This document shows positions 2,795-8,950 of a stretch of DNA of 38,489 nt, in pieces. The stretch is from contig QHRD01000110.1 in NCBI GenBank assembly GCA_003220005.1, forward strand, positions 1-38,489, written 5' to 3'. Below the pieces are notes generated by a model. That model saw only the letters and a program-made list of their open reading frames with translations, was not told the origin of the DNA and ran no database searches. Source of the stretch: Verrucomicrobiota bacterium (GTDB taxonomy: Bacteria > Verrucomicrobiota > Verrucomicrobiia > Chthoniobacterales > UBA10450). A program made the position numbers and the translations under genes. Positions within the stretch are counted from its first letter, which is position 1, and each line of letters starts with the position of its first letter.

Positions 2795-3610
2795 ATGGAG
2801 AAACGACCGGCCTTTTTGGCCTTCACAACCATTTCGCTTCTCGTCATTTCCAGCGGAGCTCTGCGCGCGCAGGGATTGGCTCCGGCAACGTTGAATCTTG
2901 CGAGCCACGATCAAAAAGCTGCGGACGACATGGTGCAAATCATCACCAGCAAGTCGGTGCAGGAAACCGCAGATAGACCGGTGCATGCGGTCACCAAACC
3001 GCGCGGCCCGGTGATCGTCAAAAAGCTGGCGCCACCGGTTAAGAAAGAGCCCGCGTCGGCAATCGCCGCCGATTCTGCGCGAGCTTTCGTGGCCGAGCCG
3101 GTGCGACCAATGGATCAACAAACCGTAGGCAAGACGACAAAGCGCGGTAGCCTTTTCAGCTTCAAGAGCCCGGAGGGGAAAAAAGAATCTGTCCCCGTCA
3201 TCACGCAATATTATCCCAAGCAGATGGTTTATCCCTTTGGCAGGGTTGATCGCCACATCGACACCAGACTGATGCAAGCAGCGAGCATCGCGGAGGAACG
3301 CGCACACGCGCACTCGCGCTCACAGTGCTGGCATTACGTCAAGGAAGCGTTGCTAGCCTCCGGCGTCATCGATTCACGCCCGAAGACTGAACTCGCAAGA
3401 GACGCTGCGTCAGAGCTCGTCAGCAATTACGGATTCAAAAAGCTATCGGTGAATGATCCATTCTCCGCGCCGGTCGGCTCGGTACTCGTGTACGGGACTT
3501 CGCGCAGCGTCGGTCATGTCGAGTTTCGCACCAGAGACGGTTTCGTGAGCGATTTTCGTTCGAAAACGCCATCGCGCCGCCCACTGCTCGGCGTTTACGC
3601 GAAGTTGTAA
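2795..3610 (+). CDS. Secreted protein with CHAP/NlpC-like C-terminal domain
   Basis: N-terminal signal peptide (FLAFTTISLLVISSGALRAQG); C-terminus QCWHYVKEAL...APVGSVLVYG...GHVEFRTRDGFVSDF resembles Cys/His amidase spacing. Confidence 0.6.
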   Translation: MEKRPAFLAFTTISLLVISSGALRAQGLAPATLNLASHDQKAADDMVQIITSKSVQETADRPVHAVTKPRGPVIVKKLAPPVKKEPASAIAADSARAFVAEPVRPMDQQTVGKTTKRGSLFSFKSPEGKKESVPVITQYYPKQMVYPFGRVDRHIDTRLMQAASIAEERAHAHSRSQCWHYVKEALLASGVIDSRPKTELARDAASELVSNYGFKKLSVNDPFSAPVGSVLVYGTSRSVGHVEFRTRDGFVSDFRSKTPSRRPLLGVYAKL

Positions 3611-3652
3611 TTTTTCATCAATTGGAAGTTAGGCTTCCGGCCTGGCCCGGCG

Positions 3653-3671
3653 GGCAGGCCTTTTGCCTGCC
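3653..3671 (+). terminator. Hairpin downstream of the secreted protein gene
   Basis: GGCAGGC-cttttg-region-GCCTGCC stem (3653-3659/3665-3671). Confidence 0.4.
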
Positions 3672-3695
3672 TTCTTAAACCATCTTTTCTCGCTC

Positions 3696-4007
3696 CTAGT
3701 AATTCCTGATCATGCGAGTCACTGCGATGAGCATCGACACGACTGGCCAGGCCGCGATCCCAGTGATCAGAAGGAAAAACAAAAGCTCGGCGACATAATC
3801 CCGGCTTCCTTCTTCGAAGAATTCACTGCTTAATTTGTAGAAGGCGGGCGCCTTAGTGGCCCGCCAGCCGGCGGAGGAATTCACCTGGCTTTCCGCTGTT
3901 GGACGATAGTTGTAATCCGTTAACGGAAAATTCTGGTGACTACGCCTTAAGCGGTTGTCGCGACGTGAGCCGCGCTGTTTGGGGTTAACTTGAAGTATTG
4001 GTTTCAT
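3696..4007 (-). CDS. Hypothetical protein with C-terminal transmembrane segment
   Basis: 103-aa ORF, hydrophobic VAELLFFLLITGIAAWPVVSMLIAVTRM. Confidence 0.5.
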   Translation of the reverse strand: MKPILQVNPKQRGSRRDNRLRRSHQNFPLTDYNYRPTAESQVNSSAGWRATKAPAFYKLSSEFFEEGSRDYVAELLFFLLITGIAAWPVVSMLIAVTRMIRNY

Positions 4008-4305
4008 AAATTTCTAAGTTGTTAAGTGTAATTGCCGAAGTCGGTTCGGGATACCGGCGCAAAAACCCGCGCGTGGTTGCGATTCGACCACTGGGGTGCC
4101 GCGAAGTGCGGGCTCCAACTTGGCGAAATCTAACGAGCCTTTATGCCGCCCGCCCGCCCCTGCGGGCAGCGCGAATCGGCGCGTTGATCAATTTCATCGG
4201 CTCTTCATGTACAGCCGTTTCCGTGTTTGTCCAGTGGTGGCCTGCGATCTCCGCTGTAAGTCTCTATCGTCGTGGGAGAAGCGATTACGAATATCTTCCG
4301 CTTAA

Positions 4306-4722
4306 TCATAGCTCGGGCGGCTCTGAGTGAGATCCGGGCCGGACAATTTGAAGGGTCATAAAGTGCGGATGCGCGTTCGTCCACGCCATTGCCTCTCTCT
4401 TTGTTTCAAAAAATCGGTCGACCACGATGGCCTTGAGTTGGCTGGCAGTCCGTCCGCATAGACGAGCCGCTTTGCGACTAATGACCGCCGGACCGGTGTC
4501 GACCGCGGTGCAGGCGCGATCCGGGAAGACCACTTTACTGCCGTACGGAATTCGCTTGGGATCGACGGCGCAATGTCCGGCGCGCAATCTTCGGCCGGTA
4601 CTGGCAAATGTAGAGCCCTCACCTGCCCAGTAACTGGTAACGCGCGCCAGGACCGACTCCTCGCGCGCGAATGCGGCCGATGCCAGCAATGAGAAAAACA
4701 TGACTGTGCGAAATAGCTTCAT
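4306..4722 (-). CDS. Secreted 3D-domain (RlpA/MltA-like barrel) protein
   Basis: Signal peptide MKLFRTVMFFSLLASAAFA; VTSYWAGEG...GHCAVDPKRIPYGSKVVFPDRACTAVDTGPAV; start moved from 4773 to the Met before the signal peptide. Confidence 0.8.
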   Translation of the reverse strand: MKLFRTVMFFSLLASAAFAREESVLARVTSYWAGEGSTFASTGRRLRAGHCAVDPKRIPYGSKVVFPDRACTAVDTGPAVISRKAARLCGRTASQLKAIVVDRFFETKREAMAWTNAHPHFMTLQIVRPGSHSEPPEL

Positions 4723-4742
4723 GGTGTTTTGGGGTTGCTCCG

Positions 4743-4982
4743 ATGTTGTCGAGTCTCGGGTGGAGCAAGCCATCCTCGATGCCGAAAGCCGCAGGAATGC
4801 AGCTTTTACTTCGGATTCGGAACAGCCCCGGCGCGCTAGCCCTCAAGGGGACGCGCGGACTTCTGACAAAGACTCGCCGCGGCGAGCCGGCCCTCCCTAT
4901 AAAGGAGTTGGCAGACTTGTCAAACGATCATCTGAATTTGTTGAAGATCCGCGGTGCGGAAATACAAAGTTTGTTGCGTTAA
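4743..4982 (+). CDS. Small ORF immediately upstream of the reverse transcriptase (uncertain)
   Basis: 79-aa ORF ending PIKELADLSNDHLNLLKIRGAEIQSLLR; C-terminal part looks coding-like, middle part may be an intergenic repeat. Confidence 0.3.
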   Translation: MLSSLGWSKPSSMPKAAGMQLLLRIRNSPGALALKGTRGLLTKTRRGEPALPIKELADLSNDHLNLLKIRGAEIQSLLR

Positions 4983-5030
4983 TCCGGGTGGCAGATACAC
5001 AAGCTAGGCAATTGCGATAGTTTCCCCTGA

Positions 5031-6617
5031 ATGTTCCAGTTAAAAGAATCGTCACTCGAGTGGGCGCTCAATCACGTGACGCGCTTCTCGGCAAATGACT
5101 TTTTCCCCCAACCGTTTGAATTCAAGGCCATCGCCGACCAGTGGGGCGAAGTAAAAAAGCACCTGTTAGGACTGGATTTGCACGTCTATGCCCCAAAAAC
5201 GCCAGTTGTCGGATTGGCGCTGAAACCGAATGGAACCTTTCGTGTCGTACACCAATTGGATCCGCTCGATTCGATTATCTACGCGGCGTTAACCTACGAA
5301 ATTGCGGCGAAACTCGAGCAATATCGGATACCTCGCGAGAAATGCATCGTTTGGTCATACCGAATCAAACCGAGCGTTAAAGGTTCATTTTTTGATCCGG
5401 AAGATAATACGTGGCGCGAATACAACCGCAGAACGAGGGAGCTTGCGGCTGAATTCAAAGATGGATATGTCGTGACTTGCGACATCGTCGACTTTTATAA
5501 CCAGATATACCTCCATCGCATCGAGAACTTGATTGAGGAAGCGTGCGGCCTTGCTTACGCGGCTCATGGCAAGGCGATGGAAAATTTCTTGCTCGGGCTC
5601 AACACGCTGACATCACGAGGGATTCCGGTTGGCCCCGCACCAAGCATCATAATCGCCGAACTAATTGCTGCTGACATTGATAAGAAGATACTCAGTTACA
5701 CCGATAATTTCGTTCGTTGGGTCGACGATATTTCGATCTTTTTCGCAACCAAAGACGAAGCGGAGCGAGTGCTTCATGAACTTACAGCATTTGTACATTC
5801 GAACCATAGGCTCGTCTTTTCCGGCGAGAAAACTCGTGTGCTTACAGTAGAGCGCTTTGTTCGCAACATGCGAGACGAGGAAGAAGAAGAACAGAAACTC
5901 GTGAAAGCACGTGCCAAAGAACGAGCGATGGACGCCTATTGGAAAGAGCTAATCGAAGAAATTCCTACCTATGACATATTCGAAGCTTTCGATGAGGAAA
6001 GGTTTCAAGAGGTGCTCAAAACGATACAAAAGGATGGCCGTTATGAAATCTTATCGGAAGTCTACCGAGAGCTGTTGTCCGCTGAATTAAAGAAGCCATA
6101 TCCAGGTTTCGCTGTCCTACGAAGGATCTTCCGCAACGCCGGTCGTTATCGAATCCGATCAATTCTTCCGTTACTATTCAAATACTTCGATAAGGTTGTG
6201 CCACTTTTAAGGGAAGCAGTTTTATATCTGCTCAAGGTGCTTACAAAAGATGTCGCGATATCGTACAAGGAGGAATTTCAGCGGATTATCGATAGTCCGC
6301 GAACCCAACTGCCATTCGTCAACACTTGGATCGCCGCATTGTTACGGCATCCAGCATTCAACACAATAGAACTGCCTCCAAATTATGATCGCGTTCTGAC
6401 AATTCATGATCGAGCGCTAATTGCCACTCGCCGAGAAGATCGCACTTGGGTGAAGGATTATAAGAATGGTGTCGACACACTTGGACCATGGGATAAACGC
6501 GCAGTATTGTATTCGGCTCAGATTCTTTCGAAGGATGAGAAACGCGCGTGGCTGAAGCTTGCAGCGCGACGTGGTGATTGTCTTGAGGCGGCCGTCGCAA
6601 CATTTGCGAGGCGCTGA
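5031..6617 (+). CDS. Stand-alone reverse transcriptase, Abi/UG/DRT-like, with long C-terminal extension
   Basis: RT motifs: FRVVHQLDPLDSIIYAAL; motif A VTCDIVDFYNQIY; motif B TSRGIPVGPAPSIIIAELIAADID; motif C FVRWVDDISIF; motif D LVFSGEKTRVL; no maturase, endonuclease or integrase signature seen. Confidence 0.88.
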   Translation: MFQLKESSLEWALNHVTRFSANDFFPQPFEFKAIADQWGEVKKHLLGLDLHVYAPKTPVVGLALKPNGTFRVVHQLDPLDSIIYAALTYEIAAKLEQYRIPREKCIVWSYRIKPSVKGSFFDPEDNTWREYNRRTRELAAEFKDGYVVTCDIVDFYNQIYLHRIENLIEEACGLAYAAHGKAMENFLLGLNTLTSRGIPVGPAPSIIIAELIAADIDKKILSYTDNFVRWVDDISIFFATKDEAERVLHELTAFVHSNHRLVFSGEKTRVLTVERFVRNMRDEEEEEQKLVKARAKERAMDAYWKELIEEIPTYDIFEAFDEERFQEVLKTIQKDGRYEILSEVYRELLSAELKKPYPGFAVLRRIFRNAGRYRIRSILPLLFKYFDKVVPLLREAVLYLLKVLTKDVAISYKEEFQRIIDSPRTQLPFVNTWIAALLRHPAFNTIELPPNYDRVLTIHDRALIATRREDRTWVKDYKNGVDTLGPWDKRAVLYSAQILSKDEKRAWLKLAARRGDCLEAAVATFARR

Positions 6618-6660
6618 TGACATCGCGTTAGATAATCGGCGTACCGGAGGAGTGGCGACT

Positions 6661-6686
6661 CTGGCGTGGCAAATTTGCCACGCCAG
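6661..6686. repeat. Perfect 26-bp palindrome
   Basis: CTGGCGTGGCAAA|TTTGCCACGCCAG. Confidence 0.95.
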
Positions 6687-6709
6687 TGCGGACTGATAAC
6701 GTGCGCCAG

Positions 6710-7717
6710 ATGGAAGCCGCTGATTGGGCATCGCTCAGCGACCAGGAGCTGCTCGAAAGACGTATCTCTACGCTCGGCCTGCGGCTTGAGGGGACGGCGC
6801 TCGAACCGTTGATCCGGCAGCTTAATGACGAGCTCTCGGCAAAGGGCTTGGTGTTTCATCCGCCGTGTCACATCGGCGATGAATGGTTTGTTCCCATCGG
6901 CATCCCGGCGATTTTCATTCCGTTCTTTCTCGTGCACGACCGGCTGCGCACGCTGGAGCGCACGATGATGCTCGAAGTCGAAGGCGGGACGCCGGAGTGG
7001 TTCATGAAATTGATGCGGCACGAGGCGGGTCACGCTTACATGTATGCCTATCAACTGACGCGGCGGAAAAAATGGAAGGAGTGTTTCGGGCAAACATCGC
7101 GTGAAGAAACACCGGACACTTACCGGCCGCGCCCGTTCAGTCGCAGTTATGTGATGCATCTGGAAGATTGGTACGCGCAGAGCCATCCTGACGAAGATTT
7201 CGCTGAGACGTTCGCGGTCTGGCTTACGCCCGGTCTCGATTGGCGCAAAGAGTATGCTGGGTGGCCGGTACTACGAAAACTGGAATATATAGATGAGCTC
7301 ATGCGCTCACTGGCGGGTAGGCCGCCGTTGCATACGCCGGAGTATCGCGTCGCCGATTACGATTGTCTCAATGTTAAGCTCAAAACTTACTACGCGCGCA
7401 AACGCAAGCTCAACGAAGATGCGTATCCAGATTTTTACGACGCCGATCTGCGACAGCTTTTCGCCGCGCCGGCTGGCATCAAGGCAAGCGCATATCTGCG
7501 ACGGCGAAGGCGGCGATTGCTCAACGCAGTTTGCCAATGGACGAACGAAAAGAAATTTCCGGTGAACCACCTCCTTGCGAGGCTCACCCGCCGCTGTGAT
7601 CAGCTTGGGTTGCATGTGCTCAATGACGATCCGCAACAGGACTTTCGCGTCACCGCCTTCATCACTACGCTGGTGATGAATTATCTTTTCACCGGCAAAT
7701 TCAAACGCACCAAATGA
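6710..7717 (+). CDS. Putative zinc-binding metallopeptidase
   Basis: LMRHEAGHAYMYAYQL (HExxH-type) plus DWYAQSHPDEDFAETFAVWL; ATG at 6710 preferred over GTG 6686, which lies in the palindrome. Confidence 0.8.
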   Translation: MEAADWASLSDQELLERRISTLGLRLEGTALEPLIRQLNDELSAKGLVFHPPCHIGDEWFVPIGIPAIFIPFFLVHDRLRTLERTMMLEVEGGTPEWFMKLMRHEAGHAYMYAYQLTRRKKWKECFGQTSREETPDTYRPRPFSRSYVMHLEDWYAQSHPDEDFAETFAVWLTPGLDWRKEYAGWPVLRKLEYIDELMRSLAGRPPLHTPEYRVADYDCLNVKLKTYYARKRKLNEDAYPDFYDADLRQLFAAPAGIKASAYLRRRRRRLLNAVCQWTNEKKFPVNHLLARLTRRCDQLGLHVLNDDPQQDFRVTAFITTLVMNYLFTGKFKRTK

Positions 7718-7727
7718 CGCTCATGTT

Positions 7728-7916
7728 TGTCATGTCGAGCGAAGTCGCCTGCCAAGCCGTAGCCCCGTGCGAAGGTCTGGAGACATCTCTGGATTTGCGA
7801 GGCTAACTACGATGAGAGATTTGATTCGCTCACTTCCCGTTCGCTCAGCCTTCGGCCTTCCCGTCCATGTCGCGGCTTCCCTAGCCACTCCATTCTCCAC
7901 TTCGGTCGGTATGACA
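7728..7916. repeat. MITE-like intergenic element with imperfect terminal inverted repeats
   Basis: TGTCATGTCGAGCGAAGTCG at 7728 versus reverse complement of right end TGTCATACCGACCGAAGTGG. Confidence 0.6.
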
Positions 7917-7930
7917 GAAACAGAAAAGTC

Positions 7931-8950
7931 GTGAAAAAGAAACTGAGACTGCTCGTGCTGTTTGACGGCACAAGCCCCACGAAACTCGATCAGGACTTCA
8001 CGAAGGAGCTGAAGACGAAAGACTGGAAGACGGAGGCGGACGTGATGGCTGCGCTGGGCAAGCTCGGTCATACCGCGGAGCATCTCGCCATCTACGACGA
8101 TGTCGATCTGGTGCGGCAAAAACTGGAGACCTGCGCCCCCGACATTCTTTTCAACCTCGTCGAACAATTCAAAAACAGGCCCGGTTTCGATCAGAACATT
8201 GTTTCGTTTTTCGAAATGCAGGATTTGCCTTTCACCGGGTGCGGTTCGACTGGCCTGACCCTTTGCAAGCACAAGGGCATTTCAAAGAAAATTCTGCATT
8301 ATCACGGGATCCACGTCCCGCATTTCGTGGTTATTCCGCGTGGCCAACGCATTGGCCGGCCGAAGCAGCTCAAGTTGCCAGTCTTGGTGAAGCCCGTGAA
8401 GGAAGAAGCGTCCTATGGGATTTCGCAGGCGTCATTCGTCCAGAATGAAGAGCAATTTCGAGAACGGGTGACTTTCGTTCACGAGAAGTACAATAGCGAC
8501 GCCATCGCCGAAGAATACATCGAAGGCCGCGAGCTTTACGTGAGTATCATGGGCAATGTGCGGTTGACCGTTTTTCCGATTCGCGAGCTGGTCTTTCGTG
8601 AAGTGCCGCCGAACGAACCGAAGATCGCCACTTACAACGCAAAGTGGGACGAAGAATATCGCAAACGCTGGGGCTTGGAGAACCAGTTCGCCGAAGACCT
8701 CGATCCGGCGCTTGTCACCAACATCCAGGAAACATGCAAAGACATCTACCGCTTGCTGACAATCGACGGCTATGCGCGAATCGATCTGCGCCTGACATCC
8801 GAAAACAAACTTTATTTCATCGAGGCAAACCCAAATCCGATTCTCGCAAACGACGAGGATTTCGCGCTTGCAGCGGGCAAAGCCGGCCTGCCCTATCCGC
8901 AATTGATCGAGCGGATCGTCCGGCAAGGGATAAATACCGTTCGCGATTGA
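7931..8950 (+). CDS. D-alanine--D-alanine ligase-like ATP-grasp protein
   Basis: LPVLVKPVKEEASYGIS, EEYIEGRELYVSIMG, GYARIDLRLTSENKLYFIEANPNP. Confidence 0.85.
   Translation: MKKKLRLLVLFDGTSPTKLDQDFTKELKTKDWKTEADVMAALGKLGHTAEHLAIYDDVDLVRQKLETCAPDILFNLVEQFKNRPGFDQNIVSFFEMQDLPFTGCGSTGLTLCKHKGISKKILHYHGIHVPHFVVIPRGQRIGRPKQLKLPVLVKPVKEEASYGISQASFVQNEEQFRERVTFVHEKYNSDAIAEEYIEGRELYVSIMGNVRLTVFPIRELVFREVPPNEPKIATYNAKWDEEYRKRWGLENQFAEDLDPALVTNIQETCKDIYRLLTIDGYARIDLRLTSENKLYFIEANPNPILANDEDFALAAGKAGLPYPQLIERIVRQGINTVRD

Follow-up and report, generated by a model that had tools for sequence, protein, structure and literature searches.

The stretch of DNA analysed here (the window) comprises 38,489 nucleotides of a contig from a soil-dwelling Verrucomicrobiota bacterium. 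It carries, on the forward strand at 5031-6617, an intact reverse transcriptase (RT) gene with an ATG start that specifies a protein of 528 amino acids. A first-pass annotation, made from the nucleotide letters alone, had given exactly this position and length and had described RT motifs A to D in order. These are readily recognised: motif A (DIVDFYNQIY, residues 151-160), motif B (SRGIPVGPAPS, 195-205), motif C (RWVDD, 229-233) and motif D (GEKTR, 265-269). The Pfam RVT_1 profile matches the protein above its cutoff (42 bits compared with 29.6). Thirteen residues are invariant across the family alignment (R71, R111, D151, G197, P199, G201, D217, R229, V231, D232, D233, L261 and K267). They include the catalytic aspartate triad (D151 of motif A, D232 and D233 of motif C), which is intact in the window RT. 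The genes on either side encode a 3D-domain protein and a Peptidase_Mx protein and, as had been reported initially, no maturase, DGR, integrase or Cas1 neighbour was seen. By translation, the remaining genes of the window look housekeeping-like (pnp, rpoA, nuo, dnaA and dnaN). The coordinates of the features are collected in Table 1.

Table 1. Features of the RT locus (window coordinates) and the evidence for each
Feature	Coordinates	Strand	Evidence or remark
Window-specific segment containing the RT	4931..6693	.	Homology to relatives ends at 4929/4930 and restarts at 6694
Upstream stretch common to palsa_1382	4967..5030	+	blastn, alignment; TTGTTG-17-GATACA, promoter-like by eye only
DRT8-family (Class 1 UG/Abi) RT	5031..6617	+	Drt8 profile, AF2 model, Foldseek
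RT-like domain, residues 1 to ~300	5031..5930	+	Family alignment
Motif C, catalytic WVDD, codons 230-233	5718..5729	+	
Tyr314 codon; candidate residue for protein priming, within an acidic, disordered loop (309-321)	5970..5972	+	
C-terminal alpha-helical (alphaRep-like) domain, residues 322-528	5994..6614	+	DSSP of the model all-helix; alignment

The RT ORF has a GC content of 47.9% compared with 55.1% for the remainder of the window, and its GC3 is 0.50 compared with 0.63-0.68 in seven other window genes. On a 1.5-kb scale the GC minimum of the window starts at 4901. The compositional contrast noted in the first-pass annotation therefore stands, in that the RT is the least GC-rich part of the window, but the whole pnp gene, at 0.57, lies below the 62% quoted for one line of it. 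Relatives of the same genus have conserved DNA to either side of the slot but lack the RT, which indicates that the contig is the organism's own and that the RT is a local insertion. A search of 34 genomes of the genus did not find the gene (two give only partial RT matches at 23-29% identity). From these sequence comparisons, we conclude that the window RT is horizontally acquired. The slot itself is a variable site within the genus (loci L150-L154): in five relatives it contains, on the opposite strand, what by translation is a GNAT acetyltransferase of ~184 amino acids in a segment of ~680-830 bp, while in others it is smaller (~90-250 bp in the shortest) and the 3D-domain gene is missing too.

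The sole close relative is an RT from Spartobacteria palsa_1382 (PMTM01000009.1; L014/L019), with 84% amino acid identity over the full length. Like the window RT it carries WVDD; unlike the window RT it has a stop at codon 333, and its locus and neighbouring genes are unrelated. The DNA shared between the two copies is limited, by blastn, to window positions 4967-6608, that is, from ~60 bp upstream of the gene through about the stop. A stricter sigma-70 scan of the upstream stretch found no site. The palsa_1382 copy (L014:9473-11056) is open before and after its one in-frame TAA (CAA to TAA), which lies near the RT/helical junction and is either a true nonsense mutation or an artefact of assembly. 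Between the two proteins dN is ~0.10 while synonymous sites are saturated, which indicates that the protein has been under purifying selection. The interrupted sister copy and the absence of the gene from the other genomes of the genus could suggest a decaying or non-defence RT, acquired but without function in its host. We regard this as the least probable of the readings weighed here, since the window copy is intact, retains all its catalytic residues and has been strongly constrained at the protein level with respect to its sister.

The first-pass annotation had recommended a profile search, and this identified the family by a wide margin. The PADLOC Drt8 model matches residues 4-526 over model positions 2-489 of 493 (E 3.6e-128, 427 bits), and the runner-up, UG21, reaches only 113.6 bits (E 2.5e-33). 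Drt8 (PADLOC PDLC03783) is presumably UG7, which fits the way in which PADLOC accessions are ordered alphabetically. Such an end-to-end match to a 493-position model, together with the substitution pattern described above, implies that the ORF is not a chance one. An NCBIfam search returned no Drt8 match and its RT matches were all below threshold. For example, group_II_RT_mat gave 40.9 bits compared with a cutoff of 300 and retron_St85 gave 34.9 bits compared with a cutoff of 235, so that identity as a group II intron or retron RT, either of which would have argued against the initial reading, is unsupported. DGR membership is unlikely in view of the full-length Drt8 match, and the same match rules out a new RT clade. 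Judged by its profile match, the window RT is thus a member of the known DRT8 family. The initial reading was correct in proposing a horizontally acquired, stand-alone RT of the Abi/UG/DRT class with an alpha-helical C-terminus, but not in considering it a candidate new type.

Relatives were collected with an alignment query, which gave 190 in genome contigs, of which the best 80 were kept; 29 loci from viral contigs were added. Sampling thus relied on a [YWF]VDD pattern and on the 80 strongest matches to the window protein. The window protein used as a single query found no relatives in the genome contigs. None was found in the phage collection searched, and distant relatives are present on plasmids. 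All 63 proteins of the family alignment match Drt8, and it is by far the best model for each of ten relatives spread across the tree. In the tree, the window RT pairs with the Spartobacteria copy, and this pair is joined next by copies from Chloroflexota, Ignavibacteria and Bacteroidota; the other Verrucomicrobiota copies are placed elsewhere. The Chloroflexota, Ignavibacteria and Fibrivirga RTs of this clade (L020-L023) are also single genes, with 45-48% identity to the window RT, but differ in their hosts and neighbours, and their position points to transfer between phyla. Since the clade mixes phyla and excludes the other Verrucomicrobiota copies, the DRT8 family appears to move between phyla.

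The tryptophan that replaces the usual tyrosine of motif C, noticed at the outset, is real, yet it is not rare in the family. Among 93 aligned relatives there are 74 with Tyr, 11 with Phe and 8 with Trp at this position (a count biased by the [YWF]VDD collection pattern). WVDD can therefore be dismissed as a special feature or the mark of a new clade, because Trp, Phe and Tyr interchange inside DRT8 and WVDD recurs on several branches. The DRT8 RTs L095, L096, L098, L101, L105 and L055 likewise have WVDD; they occupy at least two tree positions distinct from that of the window RT and its sister.

An AlphaFold2 model based on the 63-sequence alignment (mean pLDDT 91.7, pTM 0.91) shows an RT-like domain up to about residue 300 and helices alone thereafter, in keeping with the helical extension proposed initially. 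In the alignment the C-terminal domain closes with a conserved motif, W-x-[KR]R-A ... L-x-x-DE-x-x-x-W. The structural comparison suggested in the first-pass annotation was carried out with Foldseek against the PDB and gave as nearest folds DRT6 (9wy8), DRT4 and UG15 (9vdo, 9l9s), AbiK (7z0z) and AbiP2 (7r08), with E values from 4.5e-12 to 1.7e-9. These combine an RT with a helical domain, as does the window RT, but are separate families with 13-16% identity to it over the structural alignment. The TM-scores are just 0.4-0.56, the aligned part being the RT and a loosely matching helical domain. The modelled helical domain and the nearest folds place the window RT among the Class 1 'alphaRep' UG/Abi RTs. 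The enzymes of this class studied so far, with their HEAT-like alphaRep domains, carry out template-free DNA synthesis, in some cases protein-primed, and are oligomeric (PMC13174585, PMC9508834). DRT8 belongs to those DRT types that have a reported anti-phage effect but no established mechanism (PMC13213688, PMC13314766).

We consider it probable that the window RT is a horizontally acquired, solo DRT8 (UG7) that acts as a template-independent, protein-primed Class 1 DNA polymerase and causes abortive infection. Its RT-like domain has a complete catalytic centre and is joined to the C-terminal helical domain, an arrangement also seen in Class 1 Abi/DRT polymerases. The enzyme would most likely be oligomeric (trimer or hexamer), with the helical domain standing in for the template strand. 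A DNA chain would be started on a hydroxyl group of the RT itself, most likely that of Tyr314 in the flexible acidic loop between the domains, and would be extended without a nucleic acid template. This DNA product, or its build-up, would then arrest the infected cell once a phage factor had triggered or stabilised it.

Tyr314 is the most conserved tyrosine of the family (73 of 79 full-length relatives). It stands alone in an acidic loop of variable length, the columns beside it being conserved at 57% at most, and residues 310-319 alone in the model have a pLDDT <50. A loop tyrosine is present in 77 of the 79 proteins (mean loop length 14.7 residues), compared with ~36 expected from composition; no P value is attached to this excess because the sequences are related. 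Aligners may draw lone tyrosines together in gappy loops. The next candidate, Tyr399 (70 of 79), lies within a helix. A priming tyrosine near the N-terminus, as in AbiK, or near the C-terminus, as in DRT3b, was rejected, since no column in those regions exceeds 40% Tyr among the 79 relatives. AbiK primes from Tyr44 in its fingers loop (PMC9508834), where DRT8 has no conserved tyrosine. There is a parallel with DRT1, which primes from Ser402, a family-conserved residue that the cryo-EM map does not resolve (PMC13275509): in both cases a family-conserved hydroxyl residue is found in a disordered stretch. On the basis of its isolated conservation in a disordered loop and of this parallel, we predict that Tyr314 is the protein-priming residue. 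Homology does not back this choice, as the priming sites differ between AbiK (fingers loop), DRT3b (C-terminal tail) and DRT1.

Work published in 2025 presents DRT8 as having a PD-(D/E)XK domain (PMC12596737), and a nuclease of this type is neither fused nor adjacent to the window RT. In our collection only L106 and L109 have an RTasPDDEXK gene directly 3' of the RT, where it overlaps the RT stop (E 2.5e-69). Since the Escherichia coli DRT8 has such a partner, DRT8 chemistry may need a nuclease; its DNA product might activate or recruit a PDDEXK-type effector encoded elsewhere or borrowed from the host. We think this unlikely for the window RT. The RTasPDDEXK model has no match in the window's own genome (~82% complete), and of 30 other genomes or records that carry DRT8 it matches only two. 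Both positive records belong to the L106/L109 clade, which includes E. coli DRT8. The figure of two in 30 is no census, as the [YWF]VDD pattern and the selection of the best 80 tilt the sample towards the window's side of the family. Partners of other kinds were sought by clustering 780 neighbouring ORFs: no family lies near more than four of the ~80 DRT8 loci, which also speaks against an unlinked-nuclease reading and leaves no recurrent non-nuclease partner. The few families that recur are generic (ATPases, regulators, dehydrogenases and resolvases) and occur at mixed positions. In line with the defence reading, the genes immediately beside some relatives encode type I RM specificity subunits, OLD-like ATPases, MmeI and SLATT proteins.

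Some UG RTs need cis ncRNAs, a conserved one being characteristic of Class 2 (DRT2, DRT3a, DRT9 and DRT10), and the ~60 bp upstream of the gene are well conserved with palsa_1382. Like DRT2, DRT3, DRT9 and DRT10, the window RT could be RNA-templated, with an ncRNA encoded in or close to the gene that has escaped detection. We judge this very unlikely, given that homology with palsa_1382 stops ~60 bp upstream and at the stop codon, that Rfam has no match in window positions 3500-8200 and that the fold is nearest to Class 1 enzymes. In addition, most close DRT8 pairs do not have flanks in common: in most pairs of relatives with 65-92% DNA identity, homology ends no more than ~70 bp from the start codon and a few bp from the stop. 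The exceptions are L082/L083/L089 and L106/L107, which share a chromosomal or prophage context, and L073/L075, with ~70 bp upstream and 100 bp downstream in common. No conserved flanking RNA was detected in the flanks of palsa_1382 or of the close pairs, but this is a weak exclusion, since structure-only conservation would escape and the DRT2 control reached only -70 and ~-143 upstream, the available relatives being too divergent.

The window RT gene forms a compact, one-gene cassette. In this sample, the data suggest that the common DRT8 form is a solo gene and that the RT with PDDEXK is the exception. E. coli DRT8 resembles the window RT in its full-length family match, motif set, domain order and loop tyrosine (DPYSAN in L106). 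It differs in its motif C residue (Tyr instead of Trp), in having a PDDEXK partner and in its integrase/satellite context, and the two are only 26% identical. Tentatively, and at a little below even chances, DRT8 may at root be a one-gene, template-independent polymerase primed from the family-wide loop tyrosine, the nuclease by which the literature defines DRT8 being a late addition in the lineage that E. coli P4-like satellites carry. The family itself was already known; what is new is the detail of the one-gene cassette and a sharper hypothesis for minimal DRT8. The solo locus and its relatives make the minimal system clear and allow a single residue, Tyr314, to be named for the priming model.

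DNA related to the E. coli type is present in 105 of 5,426 E. coli genomes. In E. coli H3 (L170:4584-8366) the RT and PDDEXK genes follow a tyrosine integrase at tRNA-Thr and adjoin P4-like genes (phage polarity suppression and ogr/Delta). In Rhizobium leguminosarum pRL12 (L011:8001-9544) a DRT8-like RT corresponds to two annotated ORFs in CP090202 and aligns in one piece in CP090116 and CP090109. On the Aminobacter plasmid pANY103b (L012:5678-11683) a DRT8 RT lies behind a HerA-like ATPase and is immediately followed by a gene for a type VII-A1 retron RT-DUF3800, so that two different defence RTs adjoin.
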